NCBI GenBank assembly: GCA_903904515.1
Contig: CAIVCR010000021.1
Location: 1-40,776 of the forward strand
From: an uncultured Bacteroidia bacterium
Lineage (GTDB): Bacteria > Bacteroidota > Bacteroidia > Bacteroidales > Prolixibacteraceae
Reading direction: 5' to 3'
Length of the DNA stretch: 40,776 bases
Every line of letters starts with the position of its first letter. Within the stretch, counting starts at the first letter, position 1. A program made the position numbers and the translations under genes. Positions 14,805 through 37,377 of the stretch are shown here, in pieces. Under the pieces are notes generated by a model. It saw only the letters and a program-made list of their open reading frames with translations, was not told the DNA's origin and did no database searches.

Positions 14805-15548
14805 CTATTTCAAAAACTTTTCTCTGCGTTGCAAATTCGTCAGTCCGCCAAGGAAGAAGATGATGCTTGACACGGCAAGAAACAACCTGTTTTTCTGGGA
14901 AATCTGAGCCCAGATCATCTCATTCATCTTGTCGGGAATAGAATAGGGATTATGGAAAACATTCCACTGAGTACGGTCGAGGGTCTCGGCGAACATCATT
15001 AAAAGTACGCCAATAATAATCATTACTACTGCTGTTCCATTCCCATTTTTGACCATTGTAGAGACTAAAAAAGCGAGCGATCCAAGGAAAAGGACCGGGA
15101 ACATTAGTTGCCACGACATCTCAAAGACAGGGAAAGGGGTTAAGCCATAATAGCCTACCCAACAAAAGAGGTACAGGAAGAACCAGGTCAATAGAAAGAT
15201 CATCACCAGCCGAACCATCCAAACTTTGTAGCGATAATTGGGAATTCCGAAAAGAATCTCAAGAATCCGTGTATCGGCATCACTTTGGATACCAAAAACA
15301 GTGGGGTAAAAAACCAACAATAAGCCTGGAAATAGCAGCATTCCATAAACAGTGGAGGAGTCGTAACTCGGAAAATTGAATACCACGTTAATGGAGAGCA
15401 AAATAAAAATCACCAGAGCCGCGGCGACGAACCAGATAAAACGTCCGGCAAAAATGATTTTAAGGTTATACCGGGCCATTTTATAGATCAGATCGAACCA
15501 AAAATATAGGCGACTCTGCTTTGAAAATATGTTGACTGACTTATCCAT
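14805..15548 (-). CDS. ABC-2-like inner-membrane permease, last gene of the transport cluster
   Basis: Integral membrane protein of 247 residues with about six hydrophobic spans, starting after a short cytoplasmic N-terminus (FVAAALVIFILLSINVVF, YGMLLFPGLLLVFYPTVFGI, LVMIFLLTWFFLYLFCW and others). The sequence SDADTRILEILFGIPNYRYKVWMVRLVMI, with its DxRxLE..FG and short amphipathic region, resembles ABC-2 permeases in which the ATPase contacts the first loop. It is the nearest membrane partner for the ABC domain fused to the RND protein upstream, but a 301-nt gap with a GC-rich element separates the two. The permease role is inferred from topology and context; no substrate can be named. Confidence 0.7.
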   Translation of the reverse strand: MDKSVNIFSKQSRLYFWFDLIYKMARYNLKIIFAGRFIWFVAAALVIFILLSINVVFNFPSYDSSTVYGMLLFPGLLLVFYPTVFGIQSDADTRILEILFGIPNYRYKVWMVRLVMIFLLTWFFLYLFCWVGYYGLTPFPVFEMSWQLMFPVLFLGSLAFLVSTMVKNGNGTAVVMIIIGVLLMMFAETLDRTQWNVFHNPYSIPDKMNEMIWAQISQKNRLFLAVSSIIFFLGGLTNLQRREKFLK

Positions 15549-15849: not shown

Positions 15850-18800
15850 TCACTCCTTTCTCACTTTAATACCTTTCAGCAGGCAAAGGTAGGCCTCCTC
15901 AAGCACCGGTTTTACCTGAATAGCATCTTCCGATGGCTTATCGGCAGAGAGGAATCTCAGTTTGATGTTGTCACCGTCCCTCATGTGGTGGACCACCCGG
16001 TCTTTTGCCGGGAATGCATCAAAATCGCTGGCTGGAATGGTATACTGCCAGACTAATCCTTCGGCAAGTTTTACCATGTTGGCCGGATTTCCGGCATAGT
16101 GAAGTTGGCCACGGTTAACCACTGCCACCTGGTTGCAGGAGCTTGAAATATCCTCAATGATATGGGTAGAGAAAATCACGACCCTTTCGCGGCTCAGCTC
16201 GACCAGCAGGTTCCTGAACCGTATTCTCTCGCGCGGGTCAAGTCCGGCTGTAGGCTCATCAACAACAAGTATGCGGGGCAGATGGAGCAGGATCTGGGCA
16301 ATTCCTATCCGTTGCTTCATTCCGCCTGAATAACCTCCAATTTTATCGTCCTTACGATCCCAAAGATGGACTGATGATAATACATATTCAATGCGCGCGT
16401 CGCGTTCCACCGGATTAGTCAGCCCTTTTAAAATTCCCTGATAATCGAGGAATTCATAGGCCGACATATTTTCGTAAGAGCCAAATTCCTGGGGCAGATA
16501 TCCTATCAGTCCCTGCAGCTCCTCACGTTTAACCTGTGTGTCGATTCCATTAATCCATACTTTGCCGTAGCTTTGCTCGTATATTCCGCAAATGACACGC
16601 ATCATGGTCGACTTACCCGCGCCATTGGGACCCAATAACCCGATCATCCCTGTTTCGATTTCGAGTGAGACCCCCTTCAATGCTTTAAAAGCATCCCGCT
16701 TGCGGCCAATAAGCGGCATCTGTTCGACTAATTTAAAGAACACCCGTCGTGACCGGGCAAAGCGACCCTGTAACCGTTCGATATTCACATTCTTGTTATA
16801 AAGCATATCGGCAGTCTTTTGAATGGAAAGGGCTAAATACCACAATATTCCAATCATAACTACTGAACCAATCGACCTCCATTTCAAATAGAAAAGGATG
16901 AGAAAGATAAGTGGCAGCAACCAAAAGATGATTGTGTATCCGCCATTAGCCAGTTGGTCCGGCCATTTTAGGCCGGATTTCTCCCCTTTATATTTAAGAT
17001 ATTCCTTTATCGGCCCCCACAGGAAAAGGGAGAAAAAGAAGATCAGATGGGCCATAATAAACATAAATAACCCATTTTTCAGGTAACTGAATGTGAAATA
17101 GAACAAGAAACCAAGTATGGGTAATTCCCATACAAAGTCATCAAAATCAATCCAGTGCCGGTAATATTTTATTTGGCCCGCTCTCTCCCTGATATTTCGG
17201 TTACCAATCCATTCGCGCTGGAACCGGCTCCCCCAGTCATAAATTTTAACCAGGTTTTGTACCGTAATATGAATCGGTTCTGCCGGATCAATAACCGACT
17301 CTTTGGCCTTGCGCAAACTGTTCATGATAAACCAGGTAGAACCTGGAACAACAAGCACAATGGCAATCATGTCGAGCATCTGCCACAGGAATGCATCGAC
17401 ACGGGTATAAATAAGAAATATTCCCAAAACCATTAATACCACCTGGATAATTCTGATTCTAAGTGACAGACCCTTCATCCAGGCAATTGCATTTTGGAGA
17501 CCAAAATAGAAGGTTGGAATAAATATCAAGGTAAGGAGCGTACTCATGCTTAGTCCCCCGATTACAGTAATGGCAAACGGGGCTCCAATAGCACCAACAT
17601 ATTCATTATCCCCCATTGCCAGCGGAAGCATGGCTACAATAGTTACAATGGCTGTAATCAGAATAGGTCGGATACGCGACATCCCTGCAAGTATTAACGC
17701 GCGCTCAGTCCGGTATCCGCGTTTTCGGAGAATATTAGTATAGTCGATAAGTATAATTCCATTATTGACCACAATACCAATCAATATGATAAACCCGATA
17801 AGGGTATTTGCACTAAAGAGTGAATTACCCGTGAGGATCAGGGCGACAAATGAACCTATCGCTGCGAGCGGGATAGAGAACATAAGCACAAACGGGGTAG
17901 CAAGTGATTCAAATACAGAGGCAAGAATCATGAAGATAAGTATAAATGCAGCCAGGATCAAAAAGTAGAAATCCTTCAGCTCATCTTCTTCATGAATCAC
18001 TTGGACGGCAACACCGGCGGGCAATTTATAACTTTCCACGACCCGGTCAACCTCCTGTCGGTAAGTTGTCAGCAACTCCTTGGAGTCCTGAGCGGCTGCA
18101 ACAAATGAAAAGGTCACCTCTATCTGCTTTTCGCGGTTAACCCGTGTAATGTTAGCTGCACCCGATGAATAAACGATTTCGCTGATACTTTGAAGTTCAT
18201 GCAGACCACCCTTTGTGTCAGGAATGGGAAGGGTACGAAGATCATAAATTGTACGGGGTTTCTTCTGTTGCTCCAGGGTTGTCCCCAGCTTGGGCATCTC
18301 CTTTATGATAATATCGTATTCATCTGTACCCTGCTTAAACTTAATATTGGTGTTCGTCTCCTTGCTAAATGAGTTTAGTTCGCCTGCGATACCAGCCAGG
18401 GAGATATTATTCTCATTCATGGTTAGAGGATGAAACCTTAGGTGGACTTCGGGACGATTGTCAGAATAACTAACCCGTACCCTGTTCATCGACTCGAGCG
18501 ATTCCAGGAAATACTGAAGATCACCAGCCACATTTTTCATCACATCAAAATCCTGCCCCTTGATTAAAATCCGTTCCTGATTCGCTCCGACTCCCAACAA
18601 TTTCATCATGCTCCCGGTTCCCCCGGAACTTTGACGCCCTCCTGCCCCGCCACCGCCACCCGAACTGGTGGTTGTTTCAGATGCATCGGCAATATCGATT
18701 ACAGCCCCGGGAATATTCTCAACCCTTTTCTGAACGTCTTCCCTAATCTGGGCTATCGTTCTTTTACTTGTCTTCTTAAAGTTTTCCTTAAGTATCACAT

Positions 18801-20604
18801 TAAGAGTCGCACTTTCGAGTTGAATATTACTCGTAATATCCTCCTTTTCAGGGATCGTATCAATCCTGCTTTCAATCTGTGATACAATTTTATCTGTTGC
18901 CTGGATGGACGATCCTACCGGCATTGTAACACTTATCCGAAATGCATTGGTTTCGACTTGCTGAAGATTATTCATACTTACTGCAAGACATAGAAATATG
19001 GTCACGAAAAAGAAGATCAATACTCCAACAATTGTTTGCGCCGGCTTTCTTAACGAGTACTTCATCAGCATCACGTATGCCTGAACCAGCTTATTCCGCG
19101 TCGAAACCACATTAAAGCTGAGATCCTTACTGCTTTTTCTCTTAAGGAAAGAATAAGCCATCATTGGAACAAGCATGACAGCCACAAATAAGGAGATGGA
19201 AAGGGTAGAGATGATCGATACTCCAATATTTTTCCCCAGAAGGGTAATCAGAAAATTACTGGAGAAAAGAAAAGGAAGAAAAACAGTCACCGTGCAGAGT
19301 GTCGAGGAAAAAACAGAACGCCACACCTCGGTGGTACCCTGGACCACCGCATCCCGGGGAGACTTTCCGAGACCCCGCAGCCGATATATATTCTCCAGCA
19401 CCACCACACTATTATCGAGCAGCATCCCTACTGCCAGCGCTATTCCTACCAGGGTCAGACTATTAATGGAGATGTCGGCACCATAGAAAAAATTGAATGC
19501 CGTGAGCACTGAAATCGGAATTGCCAGGGCTATTATAGAGACCAATTGAAAGTTTTTAAGAAATATCCAGAGGACCATTATCGCAAGCAACCCACCAATC
19601 AATGCGAGTTCCCCGATCTGGTTCAGGTTTTTCTCCATCGTATCTGCCGCATTGTTTTGCACCTTGATCTGGATATCCTTGGAGGCAAGTGTTTTATTTA
19701 ACCTGGCAATAACAGCAAGTGTGTTGTGGGACAGATCGATTAAATTGGACTGTGCATCGTTTACAAGCGTGATAGAAACTGAATTCTTCCCGTTTACCCG
19801 CGAATAGGAGGTCTCCTCCTTGGTTCCGAAATAGACTTTTGCGACATCTTTCAGCAGAATAGGCCCTGGGGCAATTACAAGGTTACCAATCTGTTTTAGA
19901 TCATCGAATTCTGAGGTCACCTGAACAACGAACTCTTTTTTAGCCTCATACACATTTCCGGCAAATGCTCTCGCCTTATAGTTCTGTGATAATTTACTTC
20001 TGATCGTTGCAGCCGTAATATGATAAGCCTGACAAACATCCATATCAAGCTGAATTTCAATCGATTTCTCATGACCACCGAACACATTGACGCCGGCTAT
20101 ACCATCGATATTCTCTAACTCTGTCTTGATTTTGAGATCTGTTATATTTCGGACCCTGTCAACATCACCGCTTCCAAGAACCTGAAGTTGCATAAACTGG
20201 TTCTTCATCTGGTTGAGATCAACCTTGACGACCGTAACCTTAAACTGTTCAGGCAGGGATGCCTTGATCTCGTCGACTTTCTCCTGAACTTTTAGATAGG
20301 TATATTTAAAATTGATATTCTTATTGAATTCAACCATGATTGATCCCTGTCGTGACTCAGCAGTCGATTCCATATTCTGGATTCCCTGAAGGGCTCCGAT
20401 GGCACCTTCCAAAGGAACAATCGCCTGGCTCTCCATATATTTCGGGTCGACCTCGAGCTGACTGGAGATCTGAACATAAAGCATCGGGAGTTCAGCATTC
20501 GGAAACAGCTCCATGGAGAGGTTTTTCCATGAAAAATATCCCATCATGCTTAGTCCGAAGAATAGCATGCTGATCAGAACCTTTCTGTTTATAATGGAAT
20601 TCAT
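15850..20604 (-). CDS. RND efflux permease fused to an ABC nucleotide-binding domain (1584 aa)
   Basis: One uninterrupted chain. Residues 1 to about 1010 are a full RND permease: N-terminal helix, LFPNAELP, porter domains, TM4 VGMLLDNSVVVLEN with Asp397, a glycine-rich loop at 647-665, and TM10 GIVVNNGIILIDY with Asn947-Asn948 where AcrB has Lys940. Two more spans follow (about 1030-1090), then a strand-like EPIHITVQNLVKIYDW (1109-1124), about 180 residues with four predicted spans, and an ABC ATPase: Walker A GPNGAGKST 1325-1333, signature YSGGMKQR with Ser1426, Walker B ILVVDEP with Asp1449-Glu1450, H-loop His1481. All ATPase residues are intact, so it should bind and hydrolyse ATP on the cytoplasmic side. 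ATGA overlap with the upstream RND gene gives translational coupling. I know no standard family with this architecture. Confidence 0.9.
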   Translation of the reverse strand: MNSIINRKVLISMLFFGLSMMGYFSWKNLSMELFPNAELPMLYVQISSQLEVDPKYMESQAIVPLEGAIGALQGIQNMESTAESRQGSIMVEFNKNINFKYTYLKVQEKVDEIKASLPEQFKVTVVKVDLNQMKNQFMQLQVLGSGDVDRVRNITDLKIKTELENIDGIAGVNVFGGHEKSIEIQLDMDVCQAYHITAATIRSKLSQNYKARAFAGNVYEAKKEFVVQVTSEFDDLKQIGNLVIAPGPILLKDVAKVYFGTKEETSYSRVNGKNSVSITLVNDAQSNLIDLSHNTLAVIARLNKTLASKDIQIKVQNNAADTMEKNLNQIGELALIGGLLAIMVLWIFLKNFQLVSIIALAIPISVLTAFNFFYGADISINSLTLVGIALAVGMLLDNSVVVLENIYRLRGLGKSPRDAVVQGTTEVWRSVFSSTLCTVTVFLPFLFSSNFLITLLGKNIGVSIISTLSISLFVAVMLVPMMAYSFLKRKSSKDLSFNVVSTRNKLVQAYVMLMKYSLRKPAQTIVGVLIFFFVTIFLCLAVSMNNLQQVETNAFRISVTMPVGSSIQATDKIVSQIESRIDTIPEKEDITSNIQLESATLNVILKENFKKTSKRTIAQIREDVQKRVENIPGAVIDIADASETTTSSGGGGGAGGRQSSGGTGSMMKLLGVGANQERILIKGQDFDVMKNVAGDLQYFLESLESMNRVRVSYSDNRPEVHLRFHPLTMNENNISLAGIAGELNSFSKETNTNIKFKQGTDEYDIIIKEMPKLGTTLEQQKKPRTIYDLRTLPIPDTKGGLHELQSISEIVYSSGAANITRVNREKQIEVTFSFVAAAQDSKELLTTYRQEVDRVVESYKLPAGVAVQVIHEEDELKDFYFLILAAFILIFMILASVFESLATPFVLMFSIPLAAIGSFVALILTGNSLFSANTLIGFIILIGIVVNNGIILIDYTNILRKRGYRTERALILAGMSRIRPILITAIVTIVAMLPLAMGDNEYVGAIGAPFAITVIGGLSMSTLLTLIFIPTFYFGLQNAIAWMKGLSLRIRIIQVVLMVLGIFLIYTRVDAFLWQMLDMIAIVLVVPGSTWFIMNSLRKAKESVIDPAEPIHITVQNLVKIYDWGSRFQREWIGNRNIRERAGQIKYYRHWIDFDDFVWELPILGFLFYFTFSYLKNGLFMFIMAHLIFFFSLFLWGPIKEYLKYKGEKSGLKWPDQLANGGYTIIFWLLPLIFLILFYLKWRSIGSVVMIGILWYLALSIQKTADMLYNKNVNIERLQGRFARSRRVFFKLVEQMPLIGRKRDAFKALKGVSLEIETGMIGLLGPNGAGKSTMMRVICGIYEQSYGKVWINGIDTQVKREELQGLIGYLPQEFGSYENMSAYEFLDYQGILKGLTNPVERDARIEYVLSSVHLWDRKDDKIGGYSGGMKQRIGIAQILLHLPRILVVDEPTAGLDPRERIRFRNLLVELSRERVVIFSTHIIEDISSSCNQVAVVNRGQLHYAGNPANMVKLAEGLVWQYTIPASDFDAFPAKDRVVHHMRDGDNIKLRFLSADKPSEDAIQVKPVLEEAYLCLLKGIKVRKE

Positions 20605-23600
20605 TCTAGTTCGTCTTGTTTCATTGGCTTGCTACTGGTCATCAGGTCGTAAACACATGGAATCACCAACAAGGTAAGTATTGTACTTGTGATCATCCCC
20701 CCGATTACTGCGTATGCCATTGGTGAACGCAATGAGGTACTCTCCCCGAATCCGAAGGTGAGCGGAAGTAATGCGATAATTGTAATAATGCTGGTCATCA
20801 GAATTGGTCGTAACCGCTGTTGGCTTCCCATTGAAATAGCGAGACGTTTTTCCATTCCTCCCCTTCTTAACTGGTTAATCCGATCAATGAGAATGATTGA
20901 ATCGTTCACTGCAATTCCTCCCAGCATAATGATACCGATAAGGGCCATAATGTTAAATGTCTGACCCATTATAAAAAAGAGCAGAATTGTTCCCACAATG
21001 GCGAAAGGGATGGTTAGCAAGACAATAAGCGGGTGTATCAAGGACTCAAACTGGCTGGCCAGAACCATGTAAACCAATACAATAGACAACAGTAAAGCAA
21101 ACTTAAGATTTGTCATCGACTCCTGTCGTTTCTGTTCTTCACCGGCCACCTTGATCGAATAATCGGCCGGCAAATCGATTGGTGCAATTTTTGTCTGAAC
21201 CTCACCTATTACCTTATCGAGAGCCTTGTTTTTATACAGTTGGGCCATGACCTTTCCAATCCGGCTCTGGTTGCGTCTGTAAATTTCAGTTGGGGCAACT
21301 GTTTGCTCAAGTTTGGCGACTTCATATAATCGGATTACAGAGGTACCATTTTTAATGATCATATCCCCAAGTGCGGCCACACCAATTTTAGGAACATAGA
21401 TTGTGATATCCCTTAACTCACCTTCCTTATCCATCTGTCCGGCTGTCTCACCTTTCAGTTTTGCAGTTACCTGGCTTACGATATCAGTCACAGCGAGCGA
21501 GTATGAACCTGCCCTGAAACGATCAACCTGGACATTTATTTCTGGGTAACCTCCCTCCATATTTGTCTGAATATTATATAATCCAGAAATATCCTTAACG
21601 GAAGTCTCCACCTGTTTGGTGATTTTTTTGATTACCTCCAGGTCTGCCCCTCTCACCTCAACCACAACTGGCGCCTCCTGCGTTCCTAGAATACTTTGCA
21701 ATGCCGTTTCATCCTGAGTAAAGGTTACCTCAAACTGTGGATTTCCGGCATACCATTTCGCAATTGCAGCAGTTACCTGCGACGCTACGTATGCCCCTTT
21801 GAGCTTAAGAATGACTTTTACCTGAGCCGTATTTTCCCCTTCATAAACGGCAGTAGCCGATGTTGTTGTTCCTGTTGAAGGACCAATTCTGGAATAGACT
21901 GATTCAACATTATCACCCAGAAGCTCTTTAATCATTTTCTCCAGTGAGCCAACGGCCGTAGAGGTTCGCTGGAGCGATGTTCCTTCCGCCATTTTCACAT
22001 TTACAGTAAACTCTTTACTGTCACTTTTAGGCATAAACTCAGAGCCGATATAAGGAACTAAAAGAAAAGACAAACCCATCAGCAGTAAAGAGGAGATTGT
22101 AATTATCCAGCGGTGCGGTAAAAGACCAGATATAAAATTCCCGTAACCGGCAAATTTAGCACCCTTAGGTGCCTGAAGCCCTTTCTTTTTGAAAAACTGA
22201 TGATACAACATCGGGATCAGGAAAATCGCGACAAACAGTGAGGAGAAATGCGAGAATGCCACTGTCCATGCCTGATCTTTAAAGAGTTCTCCGGATGCAC
22301 CATGAATATAGACAATCGGTAAGAATACCACAATAGAAGTTAATGTTGAGGAGGTGATTGCCCCGCCCACTTCGGCTGTCCCAACGATGGCCGCCTCCTT
22401 GGCTGACATTCCCAGTTCGTGGTTGCGGAATATATTCTCCATCACCACAATTGCATTGTCAACCAACATTCCCGCTCCGAGGGCAAGCCCTCCCAGGGTC
22501 ATTATATTCAACGATAAATGATTGAAATACATCAAATTGAAAGTTGCAATAATTGAAATAGGTATTGCAAGACTCACAATTAAGGTTGTGCCAATCTTCC
22601 TTAGAAAAATAAACAGGATAAGTATTGCCAGGATAATCCCGATAACCATTGTGTTCTGTACTTCATCGATCGCTGTGCGGATAAAAGTCCCCTGGTTGGT
22701 AACAAGGGTGAATTTGTATCCGGGAAGCGCTTTGGTTATGCTGACAAGTGCCTTTTGAATATCCTCAACAGCTTTAACGGTATTGTATCTGGTCTCCTTG
22801 AAGATTGACAAGGCAAGACACCGAACCCCATTAATCCGGACGATATTAACCGGTTCCTTGTTTGCAAAACTGACTGTAGCCACATCACGCAGGTAAGTAG
22901 CCGATTTTTGAGCCGTTGTGCTTCCTGCAACAGGTGACTGATACCCGATGATCAATTTTTCGAAATCCTCCTTTTGCTGAAGAAGGCTAACACCTTTAAC
23001 CACATATTGAAGCCCGGTCTCGGTAATTGTGCCACCCGAAATACTGCGGTTGTATGCCTGAATTTTCTGAGAAAGCTGATCTACAGTGACATTATAGGAC
23101 TCAAGTTTATACGGATCGGTATCAATTCTGACCTCATTTTCCTCCACACCTGAAAGCTCAACATCTGCAATTCCTTCAAGTCTGACTAATTCATTCCGGA
23201 TATAATTGGTAGCCACCTTGCGAAGCTCGTTCATGTCGGTGATAGACTCGTGCGTAAGCCCTACAATGATAACTGGCTGTGTATTTGGATCAAGCTGCGT
23301 AATTGTCAGAGCATCGATGAGGCTATTCTGGGAAAAGCTTGTGAGCGCTTTCTGAAGATCGAGGAAAGCTTCATCCATATCTTTATTCCAGGCGTATTCG
23401 ACTGTAACCTGAGCAGAACCTGTCCGCGAAATAGATGATACCTCCATCACCCCATTCTGACGGATGGCTACAGCTTCCATCTTTTCGATAAACATCTTCT
23501 CCATCTCTTCGGGAGGCCGTTCCCCAGATTTTATCTCGACAAAAATCCTTGGAGATGTAAGGTCAGGGAACAGGTCAATTCCCAATTTCTGGTACGAAAT

Positions 23601-23687
23601 TACTCCCAGGAGCAAGATCCCCATAATGGCCATTAATACTGTTACAGGATAATTGACTGCAAAAGAAGTCAGTTTTTTCATTAGCAA
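20601..23687 (-). CDS. RND efflux permease (HAE/AcrB-like)
   Basis: Inner-membrane proton-driven pump subunit of 1028 residues, the usual RND length, with TM1 near residues 13-32, a first periplasmic loop, TM2-6 (about 340-480), TM7, a second large loop and TM8-12. TM4 carries GAGMLVDNAIVVMEN with Asp410; TM10 reads GGIAVNDSIILIDR with Asn928-Asp929, lacking the AcrB-type Lys. RND pumps work as trimers with a fusion protein and a TolC-type duct; both are encoded just upstream. Together with the overlapping RND-ABC gene it could form a mixed trimer of two RND chains, as in MdtBC. The substrate is not predictable. Confidence 0.93.
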   Translation of the reverse strand: MLMKKLTSFAVNYPVTVLMAIMGILLLGVISYQKLGIDLFPDLTSPRIFVEIKSGERPPEEMEKMFIEKMEAVAIRQNGVMEVSSISRTGSAQVTVEYAWNKDMDEAFLDLQKALTSFSQNSLIDALTITQLDPNTQPVIIVGLTHESITDMNELRKVATNYIRNELVRLEGIADVELSGVEENEVRIDTDPYKLESYNVTVDQLSQKIQAYNRSISGGTITETGLQYVVKGVSLLQQKEDFEKLIIGYQSPVAGSTTAQKSATYLRDVATVSFANKEPVNIVRINGVRCLALSIFKETRYNTVKAVEDIQKALVSITKALPGYKFTLVTNQGTFIRTAIDEVQNTMVIGIILAILILFIFLRKIGTTLIVSLAIPISIIATFNLMYFNHLSLNIMTLGGLALGAGMLVDNAIVVMENIFRNHELGMSAKEAAIVGTAEVGGAITSSTLTSIVVFLPIVYIHGASGELFKDQAWTVAFSHFSSLFVAIFLIPMLYHQFFKKKGLQAPKGAKFAGYGNFISGLLPHRWIITISSLLLMGLSFLLVPYIGSEFMPKSDSKEFTVNVKMAEGTSLQRTSTAVGSLEKMIKELLGDNVESVYSRIGPSTGTTTSATAVYEGENTAQVKVILKLKGAYVASQVTAAIAKWYAGNPQFEVTFTQDETALQSILGTQEAPVVVEVRGADLEVIKKITKQVETSVKDISGLYNIQTNMEGGYPEINVQVDRFRAGSYSLAVTDIVSQVTAKLKGETAGQMDKEGELRDITIYVPKIGVAALGDMIIKNGTSVIRLYEVAKLEQTVAPTEIYRRNQSRIGKVMAQLYKNKALDKVIGEVQTKIAPIDLPADYSIKVAGEEQKRQESMTNLKFALLLSIVLVYMVLASQFESLIHPLIVLLTIPFAIVGTILLFFIMGQTFNIMALIGIIMLGGIAVNDSIILIDRINQLRRGGMEKRLAISMGSQQRLRPILMTSIITIIALLPLTFGFGESTSLRSPMAYAVIGGMITSTILTLLVIPCVYDLMTSSKPMKQDELE

Positions 23688-23734: not shown

Positions 23735-23885
23735 GATTTAGGCTGTAGGCTAATAGGGGTTTAGGGATTTAGGCTGTTAGGGTTAATTGTTAATCTAAAT
23801 CAAATTCCCAGTCCTTTTCCTAATAGCCTAATTACCTAAAAGCCTAAAACCTAATAGCCTAAAAGCCTACAGCCTAATAGCCTAT
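23735..23885. repeat. TAGGCT/AGCCTA repeat arrays in inverted orientation
   Basis: Between the fusion-protein and RND genes, 23741-23790 has copies of TAGGCTGT/TAGG and 23819-23885 has many copies of CCTAATAG, CCTAAAAG and AGCCTA. The two halves are complementary and can form a long hairpin inside the operon transcript (23688-23881 is otherwise gene-free). Confidence 0.75.
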
Positions 23886-24952
23886 TGATTAATAATCTTT
23901 ACCTTCGAATTATTCCGAAGCGTTTCGAAACCTTTAGTGACCACCCTTTCATTCTTTTTCAGCCCTTCAATCACCTCTACAGAAGTTTCATTCTCAAGGC
24001 CTGTTGTTATAATGCGTTCCCGTGTAGCTCCCTTCTCCACGATAAATACTGTTTTCCCTCTGTTTCCGGAAACGATAATATCCTTAGAGATAACGATCGC
24101 ACTATCGCGACGGGCAACTTCGATATCTGCTTTTACAAACATCCCCGGGCGGAGTTTTAATCCCGGATTATCGATCACTAATTTCCCTTTAAAAGTCCTG
24201 GTTTCAGTGCTTACAACAGGGGAAAGCTCATTTATCTTTGCTTTGAGCGTGTCTTTAGGCAAGGTATAATTTGTTATCGCAACATCCTGTCCAATATTAA
24301 TTGTCGAGATATTCTTTTCAGGAAGATTAATCTCCATGAGCAATTTGCTGTAATCCATCAGTGTAACAGATGCAGCATTGGCAATAACACGTGTCCCGTT
24401 AGTGACCTGAGGTAAGTCGACAATTGCTCCCCGGAAGGGAGAGATAATTTCAAACTTGGTTAATTGAATTTTTGCATTCTCATAATCTGTATTAGCCTGC
24501 GCAAGGGCAACTTCTGAATTTTTCATTTCGCGTAATGTGACACCCCCTTTTTCATAAAGAGACTTCTGCTTCTGAAACTCCAGTTCCGAAATATCCAGAT
24601 TCAACTTCTTGGTCTTAACGGCAATTGTATTCTCGGTTTCAGGATTCTCCAGCCGGATGATAACCTGCCCTTTATCGACAATGTCGCCTAATTTGAATGG
24701 GGTTCCTGTCTTAGGATTCTTACTTAAAAAATAAATGCCGGCCATTTCTGTATTCAAAGTAGTCTGACTGGCAGCTGTAGCGGTTCCCGTGGTGCTTATA
24801 AACTGAACGATAGGCTTTTTTACCACATCGGATACCGAGACCGGGATAGCGAGTTCTGTATTGACCTGACTTCCCTGATTACCGCATGCAGCCATAACAG
24901 GAATCAAGAAAACTAAAAACCATCTGCCACTTTCTTTCAATGTAAATTTCAT
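23882..24952 (-). CDS. RND periplasmic adaptor (membrane-fusion protein), lipoprotein
   Basis: HlyD/AcrA-type adaptor of 356 residues that joins the RND pump to the outer-membrane duct. The signal peptide ends in a lipobox with Cys23 (VMAAC), so the protein should be lipid-anchored in the inner membrane. After it come the beta-barrel start (VSVSDVVKKPIVQFIST), a lipoyl half motif (GDIVDKGQVIIRLENPE), a short alpha-hairpin (about 105-165), the second lipoyl half (EIISPFRGAIVDLPQVTNGT) and the barrel and membrane-proximal domains. The hairpin is short, as in many Bacteroidota adaptors. The next gene, RND, starts 194 nt downstream beyond a repeat array. Confidence 0.92.
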   Translation of the reverse strand: MKFTLKESGRWFLVFLIPVMAACGNQGSQVNTELAIPVSVSDVVKKPIVQFISTTGTATAASQTTLNTEMAGIYFLSKNPKTGTPFKLGDIVDKGQVIIRLENPETENTIAVKTKKLNLDISELEFQKQKSLYEKGGVTLREMKNSEVALAQANTDYENAKIQLTKFEIISPFRGAIVDLPQVTNGTRVIANAASVTLMDYSKLLMEINLPEKNISTINIGQDVAITNYTLPKDTLKAKINELSPVVSTETRTFKGKLVIDNPGLKLRPGMFVKADIEVARRDSAIVISKDIIVSGNRGKTVFIVEKGATRERIITTGLENETSVEVIEGLKKNERVVTKGFETLRNNSKVKIINQ

Positions 24953-24976: not shown

Positions 24977-26470
24977 TTATTTTATCTGATTGACCTGAAG
25001 ATCCTTCACAAATTTGTCGGGAATCACAGGCTGATTGGTGCTAAAGTCATAGAGTGAAACGACTTTAAGGTTTAACAATGCTATTTTGTAGTTGATAAGA
25101 GACTGGGCATAAGCCATTTTTTTACCTGAGAGCTGTTGTTGAAACAGGTTTAGATCCATACTGGTAAGGTCACCGTTTTTGTATCGTTCAAGGTTAATAT
25201 CGTAAGTAAGCTGGGAGTTTTTCTGATTCTGAAAAGCAAGTTCAATCTGGTTTTTCAGATTACCAAGACTTCGGATTGCCTGACGGATATCCATTTTAAT
25301 CTGTGTCTCCTGGTTTGAAAGGCCTAGTTCCAGTGTCTTGATCACGGCCTCCTGTGCCCTGATTTTGGCTTTCCGCTGACCCCAGTCGAAGATTGGGATG
25401 TTAAAACCTAAGGTATAACGCGGACTTTGTGTCGGTTTATCATAGATATTTGCTAAAGTGGGATCGTCACCTGACAGACCAACCGAAAGAGTTGCCGTTC
25501 CGCTAAACTGATTAAAAGCTTTCACTACGATCAAGTCCAATTTGGAAGTTTCAATATTTATTTTGCGTTGCCGCAATTCCATTCTGCTGGATAAACCGTG
25601 TTCCATTGCCTTCTTGCCATCAATTTCAATCGGATTTACCACCACATCGGCCATAACAGTAATTTCACTAAATATATCCATCCCAATATATTGTTTGAAG
25701 CTATCTTTTGCATTTTCCAATGCGACACGACCAGACGCAACAGCCGACTTTGAAGTTGCAAGATTTACTTCTGCCTGGTAGAGTTCCTCCTTGGCTGCGA
25801 GTCCGGCATCGACTTTATTTTTAATAATCTCGTAACTTTTTTCGGTATTGGCCAGCTCATCATTATTGATAGTGAGGCTCATCTGAGCCATATAAACATT
25901 ATAGAAATATTGTGATACACCCATTTCGAGTGTCATCCGTTGTATCTTGTAGCTGAGTAAGGCTGTTTCGTTGTCGTACTCCACATTCTTGATCCCCATC
26001 TTTGTTTTGTTGTACATAAACAGTGGCTGCATAAGACTCAGGTTCAGGTTATTGAAAAATGCCCTGTTTTCATTGGTTGCACCTGCCACCTGTGAAGTAT
26101 TATTTTGCCAGCCGAACTGATTGTTCAGGGTGATTACTCCATCGGTATAAAGAATTGGCTGAGCGACAGTAAATGTGCCGGAAGTTGTAAGACTCCGGTT
26201 AGTAAACCATTGTGAAAGACGGGTGTCGAACTGACGGCTGTTACTGTAAGCGATCGGATTAACGCCCAGTGAGAACTGCGATTTCAAAGCTGCGCGTTGT
26301 GCATTTAGGGTCTCTGTAGTGCGCTCCAGGTTGTACAATGAACTCTGCAAACTTGGGCTTCCCTTGCTCGCCATTTCAAGCGCTTGTTCGAGCGTAATAA
26401 TTGATTGTGCCTCTCCCTGAAAGGACATAAGTGAAAGCAAGATGAGCACCAAAAATTTCTGTTTCTTCAT
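24977..26470 (-). CDS. TolC-family outer-membrane efflux protein
   Basis: Outer-membrane factor of 497 residues with a cleavable signal peptide (KKQKFLVLILLSLMSFQGEAQS). It has two internal OEP repeats rich in coiled-coil helices, the marker LEQALEMASKGSPSLQSS at the mature N-terminus and the second-repeat motif YTLGFNIPIFDWGQRKAK. It would form the trimeric exit duct for the adaptor and RND pump. It lies 24 nt upstream of the adaptor gene and 16 nt downstream of the permease-peptidase gene, so all are one operon. Confidence 0.92.
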   Translation of the reverse strand: MKKQKFLVLILLSLMSFQGEAQSIITLEQALEMASKGSPSLQSSLYNLERTTETLNAQRAALKSQFSLGVNPIAYSNSRQFDTRLSQWFTNRSLTTSGTFTVAQPILYTDGVITLNNQFGWQNNTSQVAGATNENRAFFNNLNLSLMQPLFMYNKTKMGIKNVEYDNETALLSYKIQRMTLEMGVSQYFYNVYMAQMSLTINNDELANTEKSYEIIKNKVDAGLAAKEELYQAEVNLATSKSAVASGRVALENAKDSFKQYIGMDIFSEITVMADVVVNPIEIDGKKAMEHGLSSRMELRQRKINIETSKLDLIVVKAFNQFSGTATLSVGLSGDDPTLANIYDKPTQSPRYTLGFNIPIFDWGQRKAKIRAQEAVIKTLELGLSNQETQIKMDIRQAIRSLGNLKNQIELAFQNQKNSQLTYDINLERYKNGDLTSMDLNLFQQQLSGKKMAYAQSLINYKIALLNLKVVSLYDFSTNQPVIPDKFVKDLQVNQIK

Positions 26471-26486: not shown

Positions 26487-29400
26487 TTAATTTACTTTAA
26501 TGAGCTTGACAGCATCGGCATAAATTGTCTGAGCTTTTGATAGATTAGTGAGCTCAATTTTTACAGTATCAGGGGACAGGTGATAGGATCCAATCTCCAT
26601 CCAGCCACCATCGCTATTTTTCATTTCAACAACCTGATGATCCTGGCCATCATCATGATAGACTGTAAAGTGGTAATCCTCATCAGCCTTCTCGTCGTGT
26701 CCCCACCCTTTTCTGATTTTGGGAACATATGCCAAAACTTTATAATAACCCGGATCTTTAATCCGGACATTCCAGGTCGCCTTGCGCTCACCCTTGCCCC
26801 CCCTAAGGTAGTAAGCTGATCTGATTTGCCTTCCATAAAATTGCTCATTCGTGGTCAGGGTCCATTCAACAGGCTGATTCCAGAATACCATTCCCTTATA
26901 CTTAAACTCCTTCTCCTTTTTAAATACACCTCTGGATGACTTCTGAGAATCTGAGGAAGGCAAAAATATCTTCTGAATCAGACTATTGGTCTTTGGCTTA
27001 CTAATTTCAAAACCAGGATCTTCATTATCCAGAATAATTTCATTAGGCTCAGTCCCCTCATTATAGGCAATAACCTCTTCTGCCTCTGTTGCCTGCAGCT
27101 TCTCGTCAATTTCTATCTTCCCGAACTGTTGTGTGATACTCGAAGGAATATTATGAGAAGCGAAAGTATTGAAAGTTATGGACCGGGGCTCCCGGTTAAA
27201 CAGGTAGGTGATTTTTTTGGAAATTTTTCCGTTAATGAGGACGGTTTTTTCAATATTATCGTCAGGGCTGCCACCTCCACGCATACGAAAGCCCCTTTGT
27301 CCGCCGCCCATCCTAAAGCTTACAGAGACGGCACCCGGATCCTTTTCAGTATTTGTAATTACAAAGGATACCATTGTTTTTATCTGGTCATCCTTTTTTA
27401 GTTTTTCGGTATTTATCTTACTGATAATATACCCTGGAAGTGATTTCGAATTATACCATCCGGGAAGATATTGATCAAGGTCCATATTGAATGAACTCTT
27501 TAACTGCATATTCAAATCATCGACAGAAAATGACCTGAACCGCTTTCCTTCAATAAATTTATGAATAAACTCATCAAATTTATCGGGGCCAACAGCTCCT
27601 TTCATAAGCGCGAAAAGAAATCCGCTCTTGGTGAGAATTACATTGCTCACAACATCCGGATCATCCTGTTTGTCAAGAATTTCAGCGAAAGAGGCATCCT
27701 GTAAGGCGATATTCCCCTTTTCATTATCAGAAAGCCCGTTCATGTTACGCATCCATGGATTTCCGGTTTCACTCGCAGCTTTGGATAAATAGGATTCAAC
27801 AGCCCTGTTGGTAATAGGGTATTTATCCGATCTGATATAGGTTACAAAAGTATAGTACTGAGGAAAAATAAAATAGGGGTTAATCTCTTCTTTGGTTGAC
27901 TGAGGTCCTCCAAGTTGGATGCCGGGACCACCTCCACTTCTTGGAGGAATGGTTTTACTACTGAGCAATACTTCGCTCACAAACCGTTTAAAATAATTTT
28001 CTTCGTTTTCACGAGGACTGATAGTCTGGTTATCGTGGCCTCCCCAATGTTCCGTCATTTTTTTCTGTGCCGCGAAATTGGCGCTGCCAAGTTTGAAACC
28101 ACCTTCGGGAAGATAAACCGTTTCGGGCTGTACCTGTTCACCTGCACCACTCCATACATGGCTGAATGAACAAAACTGTACAGGAATCTCCACAAGGTTC
28201 AACCGTTTGTAGGGATAAGTAAACTGAACTTTTGCCTCCCAGGTCTTGCGCAAATCGCGGATTACAGGCTTTATTGAATCTTTGAGAATTTTAAAATAAG
28301 GATCAAAAATCTTATTATGGCCGGCAATGAAATTCAAGGTATAGGTAACACTATCTACGTCAATGGATCGCGATAAGTATCTGCCTATCGCCAGAGACAT
28401 TTGGGGTAACTTCTTTTCAGGGGTAAAATCAAAAGTTCCGTTCCCTTCATCTTTGACATTACCTTGTGAGATTGCCTTTAGTCCATTAAGCGTCTTTACT
28501 TTGAGGTGAAAGTCAGTAAACTGCATCGTCTGCCATTTCAGACCTTCCGTCGAATAACTTATTCCGGCTGAAGGATACCAACGTGTTTCCGGCGTGAGAA
28601 GCACATAATCGCTTTGAATAAATGCATGTTTCCTGTCTGCTAGTCCATTCCCCCGCTGCTGTAATAACTCCAACCGCTCACGATTCATATCCAGGTAGCA
28701 AAAAGTTTCGTCTATTGTTCCGTGATAGTTTATCTTAACATTTAGCTCTCCCCCATTTGGCAACGGAGAATCGGGTTTAAGTTTTAAAAGCTGAAGTTCA
28801 CGGCTGAAATTCGCTCCGCTAACAGAGGTGACCTCAAGGCCTGGATTAAGCGTAAGGATTATCTCACTCATCGGCCGGCTGTTTAGATTTGTTAAAGTCA
28901 TTTCAGCTTCGCCAACAATTCCTTTACCAGTATGCTCGAGAATCAGGCTGCATTTTTTTAGTTCAACAACTGGAGTTGCCGCATATCGGTTATTTAACTC
29001 AAGCATTTTATCCCGGCGGTTGTCACTCTGATTAATTTGACTGATGTACTTTATTCCCAATCCCAAACCTACAGACAGGAACAAGATGCTAAAAACAAGT
29101 GTCACCCGCTGGGTAAACACAACCTGAGGAAGACGTTGCAACAATAAAATAGTCAATCCAATAAAACCAAGCCCCAGAAAAAGATAGATGCCGCGATGAA
29201 TCAGAATATCGTTCAGAAAGCCGAAACCGACAAAGTCAGAAAACGACATTGGCAGGTGAAATGCCATGTAATCGAACAGATTATGATATATGCTCTGAAG
29301 ATAGAACAGTGTTGCAGCTATATATCCCAGCAATATCACAAAGGTCACTGCCTGGTTTTTAATCACTGACATCAGAAAAAAGGAGAAGCCCAGGATGAAA

Positions 29401-29876
29401 ATCAATGTTGGAAGACTAATGAGCAAAAAATAGTAGAAATATGGGGCGAGCGAGAATTGAGTGAATGGAGAGGCTAGATTAAAAACAGCAACCATCCCCA
29501 GAGCAACAAAGTTCAACACAAAAAAGACCCAGACATTGCCGATTGTTTTCCCGATTACATAGTCTGCATTGGTCATAGACCGCATATAAATCACCTCTGT
29601 GGTATCGAGCTTTTTATCCCGCTTAAGGAAATCGGAAGCGAGAAATACAGCTATAACTGCCTGCGCGACATTGATGATATAGAGATTTATAAAGGGAATC
29701 ATCGAGGGCAGTGCAACCATATCGCCGTTTGGCCAGCCAATGCTGGTTTGCACACCAAGGTTAAACAGGAAGACAAAAAGCAGTGCCAAAATGGAGAAAA
29801 TCCGGAAGAACCAGCTTCTGAAAAGGGTTTTTGACTCGTATTTCGAAACTGTCAGAATATTGTGAATTGCCATCAT
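26487..29876 (-). CDS. ABC-2 permease fused to a degenerate M1-peptidase-like domain and a golvesin-type domain
   Basis: Protein of 1129 residues. Residues 1 to about 290 form an ABC-2-type permease with about seven spans (opening SKYESKTLFRSWFFRIFSIL). About 300-790 has an M1-like layout: beta domain, then SGAGEQ with Glu580 at the GAMEN position. The zinc motif HEXXH is missing: 30 residues on the sequence is MTEHWGGHDN (607-616) and no NEG-type Glu follows. It should therefore not be an active aminopeptidase. A low-complexity Gly/Arg stretch follows, then about 1010-1129 resembles a golvesin/Xly-type beta domain (YYKVLAYVPK, IYADAVKLIKV). With the ATPase 59 nt upstream it forms an ABC system; the large domains should be periplasmic and may bind peptide or glycan. 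Confidence 0.85.
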   Translation of the reverse strand: MMAIHNILTVSKYESKTLFRSWFFRIFSILALLFVFLFNLGVQTSIGWPNGDMVALPSMIPFINLYIINVAQAVIAVFLASDFLKRDKKLDTTEVIYMRSMTNADYVIGKTIGNVWVFFVLNFVALGMVAVFNLASPFTQFSLAPYFYYFLLISLPTLIFILGFSFFLMSVIKNQAVTFVILLGYIAATLFYLQSIYHNLFDYMAFHLPMSFSDFVGFGFLNDILIHRGIYLFLGLGFIGLTILLLQRLPQVVFTQRVTLVFSILFLSVGLGLGIKYISQINQSDNRRDKMLELNNRYAATPVVELKKCSLILEHTGKGIVGEAEMTLTNLNSRPMSEIILTLNPGLEVTSVSGANFSRELQLLKLKPDSPLPNGGELNVKINYHGTIDETFCYLDMNRERLELLQQRGNGLADRKHAFIQSDYVLLTPETRWYPSAGISYSTEGLKWQTMQFTDFHLKVKTLNGLKAISQGNVKDEGNGTFDFTPEKKLPQMSLAIGRYLSRSIDVDSVTYTLNFIAGHNKIFDPYFKILKDSIKPVIRDLRKTWEAKVQFTYPYKRLNLVEIPVQFCSFSHVWSGAGEQVQPETVYLPEGGFKLGSANFAAQKKMTEHWGGHDNQTISPRENEENYFKRFVSEVLLSSKTIPPRSGGGPGIQLGGPQSTKEEINPYFIFPQYYTFVTYIRSDKYPITNRAVESYLSKAASETGNPWMRNMNGLSDNEKGNIALQDASFAEILDKQDDPDVVSNVILTKSGFLFALMKGAVGPDKFDEFIHKFIEGKRFRSFSVDDLNMQLKSSFNMDLDQYLPGWYNSKSLPGYIISKINTEKLKKDDQIKTMVSFVITNTEKDPGAVSVSFRMGGGQRGFRMRGGGSPDDNIEKTVLINGKISKKITYLFNREPRSITFNTFASHNIPSSITQQFGKIEIDEKLQATEAEEVIAYNEGTEPNEIILDNEDPGFEISKPKTNSLIQKIFLPSSDSQKSSRGVFKKEKEFKYKGMVFWNQPVEWTLTTNEQFYGRQIRSAYYLRGGKGERKATWNVRIKDPGYYKVLAYVPKIRKGWGHDEKADEDYHFTVYHDDGQDHQVVEMKNSDGGWMEIGSYHLSPDTVKIELTNLSKAQTIYADAVKLIKVN

Positions 29877-29935: not shown

Positions 29936-30832
29936 TCAGATCTCGTGCCAGTGCTGATTAAGCTCATTCTCCATGAAATTTACATAAGCGTGTTCCAGAT
30001 TGGGCTCAATCTGTTCGCCTGCATAGCCATTGATATTTTTCGACACAACCTGCACTTCCCATCCCTCTTCGGATGGAATTGAGGAGATAATCGGGTATTT
30101 ATCCTGGATTTCCTGGTATTCGGTTTCGTTGGCAGTAATCCGCCATACATTATTTCGCGCCTGGTTGATCAGCAATTCAGGAGACCCTTTGAAGGCAAGA
30201 GTCCCTTTGTTCATCAGGGCCATATCATTGCAGGTACTGGAGATATCACCAACGATATGGGTGGAAAGAATGATCACAACATCGCGCTCACTGATACGGG
30301 TAAGCAGGTTGCGGAACCTGATACGCTCTTCAGGATCGAGCCCCGTTGTGGGCTCATCCACAATAATAATCTGAGGATTGCCGATCAGTGCCTGGGCAAT
30401 TCCAAGCCTGCGTTTCATCCCTCCCGACAGGTTATTGGCAAAACGGTTCCTCGCTTCATACAGACCAACCTCCTCAAGCATCTTCTCAACCGCATCATTC
30501 CTTTTCGAAGACTGGTTCATCCCTGACAACCTGGCAATATAATCGAGAAATTCATAGGTGCGTAACTTGGCAAAGAACCGAAAATCCTGGGGAAGATAAC
30601 CGAGCATGGTGCGTATCTCTTTCCTGTTTTTCTGTAAGTCGAGCCCGTTAACCAGAACCTCTCCCGAAGAGGGTTTTGCCAGAGTAACAAGTATACGCAT
30701 TAAGGAAGATTTGCCGGCCCCATTAGGTCCCAAAAGACCAAACATCCCGTTCTCAATGGTCATTGTGACATCTTTTAGTGCATGATTGCCGTTCGGATAG
30801 ACCTTATTCAGACCATTTATCTCGATTTTCAA
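29936..30832 (-). CDS. ABC transporter ATP-binding protein, first gene of the transport cluster
   Basis: Cytoplasmic ATPase of 298 residues with Walker A GPNGAGKSS (35-43), Q-loop in GYLPQDF, signature LSGGMKRR, Walker B IIIVDEPTTGLDP and H-loop STHIVGD, then a C-terminal extension of about 75 residues. It should drive the permease-peptidase encoded next. It resembles the ABC domain of the RND fusion closely in sequence (GLLGPNGAGKS, EFLDY after the Q-loop, ERIRFRNLL after Walker B), which points to duplication. No convincing TAnnTTTG box was found upstream on this strand. Confidence 0.94.
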   Translation of the reverse strand: MKIEINGLNKVYPNGNHALKDVTMTIENGMFGLLGPNGAGKSSLMRILVTLAKPSSGEVLVNGLDLQKNRKEIRTMLGYLPQDFRFFAKLRTYEFLDYIARLSGMNQSSKRNDAVEKMLEEVGLYEARNRFANNLSGGMKRRLGIAQALIGNPQIIIVDEPTTGLDPEERIRFRNLLTRISERDVVIILSTHIVGDISSTCNDMALMNKGTLAFKGSPELLINQARNNVWRITANETEYQEIQDKYPIISSIPSEEGWEVQVVSKNINGYAGEQIEPNLEHAYVNFMENELNQHWHEI

Positions 30833-31016: not shown

Positions 31017-31535
31017 ATGAGAACCATAGAAAGAGCCATAGAGAATTTCATTTTTTTCAGCCGCTGGCTGCAATTACCCGTCTATTTAGGGCTTATTATT
31101 GCCTCAATACTCTATGCATTAAAATTTCTGGCAGAGTTGTGGCATTTACTCGTTGAATTCTCATCAATGACAGAAAATACATTCCTTCTAACCGTTTTAG
31201 GGTTAATAGACATCTCAATGGTGATCAACTTATTGGTAATCGTATTTATTGGCGGCTATTCGACTTTTGTAAGTAAAATAAATTTTGAAAACCACGAAGA
31301 TAAACCCGATTGGCTTAGTAAAATTAACGCAAGCTCTCTTAAAATCAAACTCATTATTTCGCTTGTAAGCATCTCGGGGGTGCATCTGTTAAAAACGTTT
31401 ATTGACATTCATAATATTCCTTTACAGGATGCATTGCTACAAATCGGAATTCATATGGTATTTATTATCTCGGCATTACTCCTTACAATTACAGATAAGA
31501 TCATGCATTCGGATGAAGCATCAGTCGGGCATTAG
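31017..31535 (+). CDS. YqhA/UPF0114-family membrane protein
   Basis: Membrane protein of 172 residues with four predicted spans, matching the UPF0114 (TIGR00645) family. The opening ERAIENFIFFSRWLQLPVYL, the second-span LGLIDISMVINLLVIVFIGGY, and SLKIKLIISLVSISGVHLLK are characteristic. The family's function is unknown. The gene stands alone between the start of the efflux cluster (divergent) and the GntR/ABC operon (convergent). Confidence 0.9.
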   Translation: MRTIERAIENFIFFSRWLQLPVYLGLIIASILYALKFLAELWHLLVEFSSMTENTFLLTVLGLIDISMVINLLVIVFIGGYSTFVSKINFENHEDKPDWLSKINASSLKIKLIISLVSISGVHLLKTFIDIHNIPLQDALLQIGIHMVFIISALLLTITDKIMHSDEASVGH

Positions 31536-31648: not shown

Positions 31649-32344
31649 TCAATAATCATTAATATTTATCTTGCTCGTAGCATCTTTTTTTAGCCAAACC
31701 TCCTGAGGCTGCCTGGCCTGAATCCTGGAACTATCAGCCAAAGTCCCACCCAGCTTTAATGTAATGCCATCCAGAGATATTTCTGAATGTTGAAGGGCGA
31801 TTCCCATTGAATCGACATAAAATTCTCTTCCATAAACATTGGAATGGTTGTTCGCCCGGATTTCCAAAAAATGGATCCTCGATTTATAGGGCTCGCTCTC
31901 GCTCAGGACTACATTACTTTGATTAATCGTAAGTGACAACTCTTCCGTACTAAAGCTTTCAAGAGTCAGATTGGAATTTTTCAGTAGAACATGCCTCAGT
32001 GAATTGTTAGCGTGAATCCGGATCGATGCATTGCTATGCGACAACTTCTCAAAATCTGAAATTTTCAAAGTATCGTCATTCATCGAAAAATTTACCGTTT
32101 GTGATATCGAATCCTTCAAACTGGTTATCTCAAAAAACGAAGAATCATTTTTCACCAGGGTGACATTCATACTATTTGTGATAGTCAGCGTCCTGAAAAA
32201 CTTCAGAGAGTGCTTATTCACCTTAAAATCAGAGGAGATATCGCTATCCCGGCGGCCATTAATGCGCAGGTCAATCATTGCAGCCAGGATAAGACCTGCA
32301 ATTGTTCCAACGAGAACGAAAAATATTATTTTACTGGTTTTCAT
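31649..32344 (-). CDS. Membrane-anchored beta-helix protein, DUF2807/GIN-domain-like
   Basis: Protein of 231 residues with one N-terminal membrane anchor (KIIFFVLVGTIAGLILAAMI) and a repetitive beta-rich body with alternating short strands (SNLTLESFSTEELSLTINQS), as in DUF2807 putative autotransporter/adhesin domains. I start at ATG 32344 (MKTSKII): the longer frame from 32371 overlaps the GntR gene by 41 nt and adds residues without a membrane or signal function. It is the last gene of the GntR/ABC operon. Role unknown; context suggests envelope stress or export. Confidence 0.65.
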   Translation of the reverse strand: MKTSKIIFFVLVGTIAGLILAAMIDLRINGRRDSDISSDFKVNKHSLKFFRTLTITNSMNVTLVKNDSSFFEITSLKDSISQTVNFSMNDDTLKISDFEKLSHSNASIRIHANNSLRHVLLKNSNLTLESFSTEELSLTINQSNVVLSESEPYKSRIHFLEIRANNHSNVYGREFYVDSMGIALQHSEISLDGITLKLGGTLADSSRIQARQPQEVWLKKDATSKININDY

Positions 32345-32711: not shown

Positions 32712-32712
32712 T

Positions 32713-33507: not shown

Positions 33508-33511
33508 AGCT

Positions 33512-37331: not shown

Positions 37332-37377
37332 CTCAGAACTCGTTAAAATTGGTGTTTCATATTTTGGTGCAATTCTA

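Follow-up and report, generated by a model that had tools for sequence, protein, structure and literature searches.

The window analysed here is a 40,776-nucleotide stretch of DNA from an uncultured Bacteroidia bacterium of the Prolixibacteraceae (positions 1 to 40,776 of contig CAIVCR010000021.1, assembly GCA_903904515.1). Its minus strand encodes a protein in which a full-length permease of the resistance-nodulation-division (RND) superfamily is joined, in one reading frame, to a nucleotide-binding domain (NBD) of the ATP-binding cassette (ABC) type. The fusion gene belongs to an operon of seven genes. These encode the components of an RND tripartite pump together with two ABC ATPase domains and one or more ABC-2-type membrane proteins; one of the two ATPase domains is covalently part of an RND protein. 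From this gene content we see a slightly better than even chance that the seven genes encode a single envelope-spanning exporter, in which an ABC heterodimer would be tethered to an RND heterotrimer.

An RND permease and a split ABC ATPase domain in one chain

The first-pass annotation of the window had described a 1584-residue chain uniting an RND permease and an ABC ATPase without an internal stop, and had named no strand. The chain is confirmed on the minus strand (Table 1); frame 1 of the plus strand over 15850-20604 contains many stops. The Pfam profile ACR_tran matches residues 3-1034 over nearly its whole length (positions 4-1018 of 1021; E 1.4e-161, 539.9 bits), which places the protein among the RND superfamily permeases, and ABC_tran matches residues 1309-1453 (E 1.3e-28). 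Among the best 25 of 190 NCBIfam matches, no model for the RND or the ABC part lies above its cut-off, the best multidrug RND model being RND_permease_2 with 451.1 bits against a cut-off of 1250. The ATG of the fusion gene overlaps the stop codon of the upstream gene, which codes for a second RND permease (RND2), in the arrangement ATGA; translation of the two proteins in step is therefore likely. The motif positions of the first-pass annotation are correct, namely Asp397 in the RND part and, in the NBD, Walker A from residue 1325, the SGG signature at 1426, Asp1449/Glu1450 and His1481. Its statement that the RND part is full length also holds. As to its twelve membrane spans, hydropathy gives 11 in the RND part, with none above threshold at the N-terminus. 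Six further spans beyond the RND part, at about residues 1055-1094 and 1157-1263, had gone unrecorded, as had the splitting of the NBD and the seven-gene operon.

Relatives of the fusion were searched with a 274-residue linker, a query that leaves ordinary RND and ABC genes unmatched. The linker was matched in 37 of the 61 genomes of a sample of relatives, in 40 of 295 genomes of the order and in 7 of 395 genomes of the phylum, the own genome being included each time. Most matching frames of the relatives sample measure 1566-1620 residues; the others are shorter and mostly located at contig ends. Two phylum matches (G176 and G405) fall outside the class of the window, and a third (G311; E 8.8e-4, a 320-residue frame in a genome where PERM_M1, a protein of the operon, is absent) was taken as chance. 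A scan of genome contigs found 304 stretches encoding linker relatives. The best 80 of the 304 were kept, in partial overlap with the relatives-sample genomes; a closed frame with RND and NBD parts is present in 74 of these 80 loci and measures 1566-1606 residues in 70. The fusion stands on the complete chromosome of a type strain, Draconibacterium orientale FH5T, and is found in named isolates of Prolixibacter, Mangrovibacterium, Maribellus, Mariniphaga, Sunxiuqinia and Tangfeifania. One contig titled Chitinophaga pinensis (L116) carries an operon resembling those of Prolixibacteraceae, and the name of the record may be wrong. No linker match was found among plasmids at E 1e-5 (phage and viral collections lay outside this search). 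An unfused arrangement, with RND and NBD as two genes of one operon, was not seen in the loci read, no other search for it having been made, and the sole candidate (G050) proved to be a contig ending inside the fusion.

From the examined loci 119 complete fusion frames were collected, of which 96 are distinct, the window included; residue counts below refer to these 96, identical proteins being counted once and 13 partial or broken frames being dropped. The ratio of nonsynonymous to synonymous substitution rates (dN/dS) was computed segment by segment. Compared with its nearest relative (L039), the window has values of 0.013 (RND part), 0.049 (linker) and 0.014 (NBD). Against a second relative (L042) the values are 0.023, 0.073 and 0.009. 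Five relatives were tried and the three others (L040, L041 and L048) were synonymously saturated in at least two segments, either linker and NBD or all. All three segments of the fusion are under purifying selection. The first-pass annotation had allowed that the join might exist in no other genome; the 37 matching genomes out of 61 settle that point, and the same neighbours recur with it in a conserved operon order.

Past the RND part, the chain comprises two transmembrane (TM) helices, a strand with the A-loop, an insertion with four predicted TM helices and the rest of the NBD. The NBD is interrupted by a membrane insertion between the A-loop tyrosine and Walker A, as three lines of evidence support (an A-loop profile, the start of the GldA model match and an AlphaFold2 model). 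The distance between these two motifs is 203 residues in 73 of the 96 fusions and at least 131 in all 94 measured. It is 23 residues in NBD0, the separate ATPase encoded by the first gene of the operon (37 of 44 proteins caught by the pattern). Two of the 96 fusions and 7 of the 44 NBD0 lie outside this text pattern, the two fusions being scored as misses; by alignment the A-loop tyrosine, and with it the aromatic residue of the A-loop, is present in 96 of 96 fusions. In ABC NBDs this aromatic residue usually stands close to Walker A, although such spacing does not define them. A profile of the first strand and A-loop of NBD0 finds its best linker position at the equivalent of Tyr1122 in 94 of the 96, with a median of 18.4 bits at that place and -4.0 at the second-best. 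In the fused NBD the match to the GldA model begins at model position 16, in NBD0 at position 3; the match to the drrA model begins at positions 4 and 5, respectively, and is not informative on the split. In an AlphaFold2 model of residues 1031-1584 (mean predicted local distance difference test score, pLDDT, 84.9), residues 1113-1122 form a strand and the other linker residues are helical. Since no other strand is at hand, we infer that this strand pairs with the NBD sheet in the model, a pairing that Foldseek matches do not show.

The positively charged loops 1095-1158 and 1263-1306 are consistent with a cytoplasmic NBD according to hydropathy and charge. The smallest insertions seen (L201 in G506 and L203 in G696) span 112 residues, in which one or two helices are predicted; the number of helices is therefore not fixed. 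A profile of the linker found no sequence relative among solved structures in the PDB. To our knowledge, an NBD interrupted by membrane helices beside its ATP-stacking tyrosine is an unusual connection between ATP and the membrane.

The residues of catalysis are complete. The Walker A lysine, Q-loop glutamine, SGG signature, Walker B aspartate, catalytic glutamate, D-loop aspartate and H-loop histidine are found in 96 of 96 fusions, the whole motif set of an ABC transporter NBD; only the last position of Walker A varies (Ser in 88, Thr in 8). The catalytic residues are likewise invariant in the 44 distinct complete NBD0. The NBD model has structural matches to many ABC ATPases; TM_1403, TM0544 and LptB come first, and NosDFYL and ABCA chains are among the top 50.

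The seven-gene operon

Table 1. Location in the window of the fusion gene, its segments and the other genes of the operon
Feature	Coordinates	Strand	Remarks
RND-ABC fusion gene	15850..20604	-	1584 residues, one ATG-started frame, no stop
RND permease part, residues 1-1036	17497..20604	-	Pfam ACR_tran 3-1034
Linker, residues 1037-1110, two extra TM helices (~1055-1073, ~1076-1094)	17275..17496	-	Family-averaged hydropathy; helices of the AlphaFold2 model
First NBD strand and A-loop Tyr1122, residues 1111-1124	17233..17274	-	RND side of the insertion; AlphaFold2 strand 1113-1122
Membrane insertion inside the NBD, residues 1125-1305	16690..17232	-	Cytoplasmic helix, four predicted TM helices (1157-1263), basic tail
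NBD core, residues 1306-1520	16045..16689	-	Walker A, Q-loop, SGG, Walker B, D-loop, H-loop
C-terminal tail past the NBD, residues 1521-1584	15853..16044	-	Mean top-residue frequency 0.60
NBD0, separate ABC ATPase, first operon gene	29936..30832	-	ABC_tran E 2.4e-32
PERM_M1	26487..29876	-	ABC-2-type membrane domain (7 predicted TM helices), M1-like fold without HEXXH, Golvesin_C
TolC-type outer membrane channel	24977..26470	-	OEP, E 3.1e-42
Periplasmic adaptor (membrane fusion protein, MFP)	23882..24952	-	RND_mfp TIGR01730, 174.5 bits, cut-off 94.9
RND2, second RND permease, full length	20601..23687	-	ACR_tran 707 bits; conserved neighbour
ABC2c, last operon gene	14805..15548	-	247 residues, six predicted helices; possible ABC-2 half permease

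The order of the genes is NBD0, PERM_M1, TolC, MFP, RND2, fusion (sixth of seven) and ABC2c. The adaptor and the TolC-type channel thus stand in one operon with the RND genes, as the gene set of a tripartite efflux pump. Conservation of the operon was assessed at 36 loci of the non-own relatives-sample matches and at 20 further loci picked for distance or oddity; all were chosen by a linker or PERM_M1 match and the counts are conditional on that choice. All seven genes are intact, in one frame each and in the same order and direction, at 20 of the 36 loci. Among the other 16, 12 are cut by contig ends, three have a frame break in one gene and one is dispersed. Of the 20 further loci, 18 are complete and two are cut or broken near a contig end. 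In the dispersed case (G030) NBD0/PERM_M1/TolC, MFP/RND2 and fusion/ABC2c stand at three places with all seven genes kept (L219, L220, L224 and L065), the first group running across what are apparently two contig ends. An ABC2c-like frame follows the fusion in 75 of the 80 genome-contig loci.

The linker and PERM_M1 also occur together across genomes. In a sample of 99 genomes of the order, a strong PERM_M1 match was found in 12, a linker match in 12 and both in 11; five more genomes have weak, partial PERM_M1 matches only. PERM_M1 alone was found in the genome whose contig ends inside the fusion (G050), and the linker alone in a genome that is 61% complete (G047). Neither is present in G028 (one contig, 99% complete) and G036 (95%), nor in the incomplete G002 and G017. 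Within the own genome, the best paralogue of the fused RND part is RND2 (308.8 bits, the next 167.5) and that of the fused NBD is NBD0 (225.3 bits, the next 204.3).

PERM_M1 combines a membrane domain with a large soluble part. The Pfam domain ABC2_membrane_2 (E up to 0.1) is matched by 37 of the 42 members, the best value being 6.5e-08. With its seven predicted helices, the rest of the protein should therefore lie in the periplasm. This part is modelled with an M1 aminopeptidase fold (pLDDT 83), and all 50 listed PDB matches bear titles of M1-type peptidases. The HEXXH zinc motif of M1 aminopeptidases is absent in 44 of 45 PERM_M1, and the only instance (L071, residue 885) lies past the region matched by the M1 model in the copy of the window. 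Golvesin_C ends the protein in 42 of 42. The peptidase-like part probably serves for binding. Another PERM_M1-like frame, a distant one with 23% identity, stands directly before the operon of G714 (L209, 3-1757) and is open at the start of the stretch.

Around the operon, the window encodes a divergent UPF0114 membrane protein upstream of NBD0 (31017-31535, plus strand). Just past the operon, 32331-34324 holds a further ABC cassette composed of a GntR-type regulator, a 290-residue protein without a Pfam match and a 270-residue ABC ATPase, and 35760-37400 (minus strand) codes for a Beta-lactamase-family protein (serine hydrolase) with DUF3471.

Assembly and energy source of the proposed exporter

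The presence of two different RND permeases with one adaptor and one TolC suggests a heterotrimer of RND2 and the fusion, comparable to MdtB with MdtC, and two complete, differing NBDs with two membrane proteins suggest one ABC heterodimer. If the trimer contains one fusion, it would bring one NBD, needing one NBD0 to close. In the proposed exporter the fused NBD and NBD0 would form a heterodimeric, type-V-like ABC engine acting on the membrane domains of PERM_M1 and ABC2c, and the tether would dock this ABC unit next to the RND trimer. Substrate would be moved by the ABC half from the inner membrane or the cytoplasm to the periplasmic side. There the peptidase-like/golvesin domain of PERM_M1 would probably hold it until it enters the RND-adaptor-TolC duct and is released from the cell. 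The insertion that splits the NBD would anchor the ATPase to the membrane and may relay its ATP state to the RND helices. The first-pass annotation had offered an RND scaffold carrying an ABC module as one option, and this fits best because ABC partner subunits are encoded beside the fusion.

Several points weigh against such an exporter. The assembly of the complex, the pairing of the two NBDs and transport by the complex are read from gene content, and the fused NBD could pair with itself. The ABC-2 match of the PERM_M1 of the window has an E value of 0.0015 and falls below the cut-off of Pfam. As to ABC2c, at E up to 0.1 ABC2_membrane_3 is matched in 6 of 61 members and Acyl_transf_3 in 7 of 61, the NCBIfam search gave nothing useful, no sequence relative was found among solved structures in the PDB, and its hhalign comparison with PERM_M1 is not significant (probability 0.4%, E 0.16). 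Its position and the weak ABC2_membrane_3 matches make ABC2c a possible ABC-2 half permease. Among the parts of an ABC-2/type V exporter, two NBDs are hence present, the PERM_M1 half is moderately supported and the ABC2c half weakly.

The proton relay of the RND part is altered. Asp397, R977 and T984, equivalent to D407, R971 and T978 of AcrB, are invariant in 96 of 96 fusions. The position of D408 is an asparagine in 92 of 96 (N398) and that of K940 an asparagine in 96 of 96 (N947), so the AcrB-type (hydrophobe/amphiphile efflux-1, HAE-1) relay set D407, D408, K940, R971 and T978 is incomplete, two of the three proton-triad residues being replaced, and the protein is not classed as an HAE-1 drug/proton antiporter. 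RND2 likewise has asparagine at the D408 and K940 positions, in 87 of 89 and 88 of 89 proteins, respectively; for NBD0, RND2 and the other sets, low-scoring, short and contig-end-open frames were excluded, one RND2 row with an X being kept. A conventional proton-driven RND part can hence not be taken as given, since two relay positions are asparagine. Control RND homologues (E up to 1e-60) came from 24 genomes of the order that lack a linker match, 14 of which contain them; of 23 such proteins, 22 keep D-D-K/R. The exception has D-N-N (L241) and is a stand-alone RND in a TolC-MFP-RND operon with no ABC gene in the stretch read (L241/L257, G060:C16). Metal-pump RNDs are generally regarded as proton-driven. 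The own genome encodes seven other RNDs, and three of these lack both the D408 and the K940 residue and have what we take to be the motif of metal pumps (in one of the seven, L230, the TM10 position did not align). Relay loss was accordingly rejected as proof of ATP drive, because these RNDs and L241 share it; nor does it prove that proton drive is absent. Two RND frames of the own genome are over-long, with 1463 residues (L233, G000:C111, 701-5092) and 1335 residues (L230, G000:C76, 646-4653), and metal-pump/TolC fusions of such length occur in Bacteroidota.

The first-pass annotation had suggested a doubly energised pump. This is conceivable, as the ATPase motifs and Asp397 are invariant in 96 of 96 fusions, but proton drive is not a given with asparagine at two relay positions. 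That ATP hydrolysis at the fused NBD is transmitted to the RND helices and drives or times the RND cycle, replacing partly or wholly a proton relay in which two of three core residues are lost, is a tentative idea that we find conceivable and rather doubtful. A stronger version, in which ATP is the sole fuel and the ABC engine works both RND proteins as a moving conduit or scaffold, is unlikely. It would explain the asparagines in nearly all fusions and RND2, which 22 of the 23 control RNDs do not share. The available sections of a review describe AcrB D408 as protonated and deprotonated through the cycle, and extrusion as abolished when a conserved triad residue or R971 is substituted (PMC8277102). 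MmpL7, which has no proton relay, has been proposed as a scaffold with DrrABC, for which its authors state, in the text available, that there is as yet no direct evidence (PMC11539658). Nevertheless, a dead relay would not need the D407 and R971 equivalents that are invariant in 96 of 96 fusions, and the metal-pump-like RNDs and the stand-alone L241 lack the same two residues.

The fused NBD might also work outside any ABC transporter, dimerising with that of a second fusion protomer and gating or driving the RND part directly. The covalent join, the membrane insertion beside the A-loop and the weak case for ABC2c as an ABC-2 half would all suit this reading; the presence of a second ATPase and an ABC-2-type permease in the same operon, at the loci reaching far enough (elsewhere in the genome in G030), and the odd number of fused NBDs that a mixed RND trimer may hold make it improbable. 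Slightly more improbable still is a tether that serves co-expression or regulation only, the ABC and RND pumps working separately on related substrates. With the exception of the weakly supported ABC2c, each half does contain what a working pump of its type requires, but the operon provides a single adaptor and a single TolC, and the covalent join is kept across the family and in other classes of the phylum, with its linker under purifying selection. As for an artefact of assembly or annotation, or a chance read-through of two genes, the frame is broken in the fusion on some contigs (e.g. L054 and L097). These stand against the complete frames collected, one of them on the finished D. orientale chromosome (L102), and against the first NBD strand, which sits on the RND side of the insertion. 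Chance read-through and misassembly were rejected in view of recurrence, joins in one frame and purifying selection, and we regard their likelihood as negligible.

Comparison with known export systems

Among the titles and abstract openings listed from one open-access library, none describes an RND-ABC chain or this operon (subscription journals and TCDB lay outside this search). The statement of the first-pass annotation that no characterised transporter unites the two is thus not contradicted by the papers listed. Each domain is already known and their joining is new. The inner-membrane engine (ABC, RND or major facilitator superfamily) decides the class to which a tripartite pump is assigned, and a conserved chain that belongs to two classes breaks this scheme. 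The fusion is also a natural test of whether ATP can work an RND trimer. If the proposed exporter is real, it would be the first exporter known to link an ABC engine with an RND trimer via a single chain.

On the RND side, the operon resembles that of MdtABC-TolC, with a tandem pair of different RND permeases, an adaptor and TolC, RND2 being the best paralogue of the fused RND. MdtBC is a rare heterotrimer according to the available sections of PMC8277102. The present operon differs in that one RND carries six extra TM helices and an NBD and that ABC subunits are encoded with it. MdtB and MdtC have Asp and Lys at the AcrB D408 and K940 positions, where the fusion and RND2 have Asn.

On the ABC side, the likeness to ABC-2/type V exporters and LptB-like ATPases concerns the fold and motifs of the NBD and the ABC-2-type domain of PERM_M1. 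The match list of the fused NBD also contains the MetN, Atm1 and MacB ATPases. In contrast to all of these types, a membrane insertion here divides the NBD, which is also part of the same chain as an RND permease. PERM_M1 is close to what we take to be ABC permease/M1 aminopeptidase fusion proteins, in which an ABC-2-type membrane domain is also followed by an M1 fold; it differs from them in the nearly general absence of HEXXH and in its Golvesin_C end. MacAB-TolC is not known to involve an RND protein. It shares with the proposed exporter an ABC-powered tripartite export through an adaptor and TolC, as far as the text available describes it (PMC8277102, PMC5985334), and differs in that the NBD of MacB is fused to its own permease (PMC8277102).

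The nearest described cooperation between ABC and RND proteins is that of DrrABC with MmpL7. In the sections available, the type V ABC exporter DrrABC and the RND protein MmpL7 are needed for the same export, that of mycobacterial phthiocerol dimycocerosate (PDIM), as separate proteins with the lipoprotein LppX as helper (PMC11539658). The fused NBD matches the drrA model with E 3.3e-47 and 161 bits, below its cut-off of 312. Contrary to the mycobacterial system, ATPase and RND protein here form one chain, and genes for an adaptor and a TolC channel accompany it. If the proposed exporter holds, the fusion would provide, in cultured environmental bacteria, a covalent and structurally tractable case of the ABC-RND cooperation that is suspected in mycobacterial lipid export.

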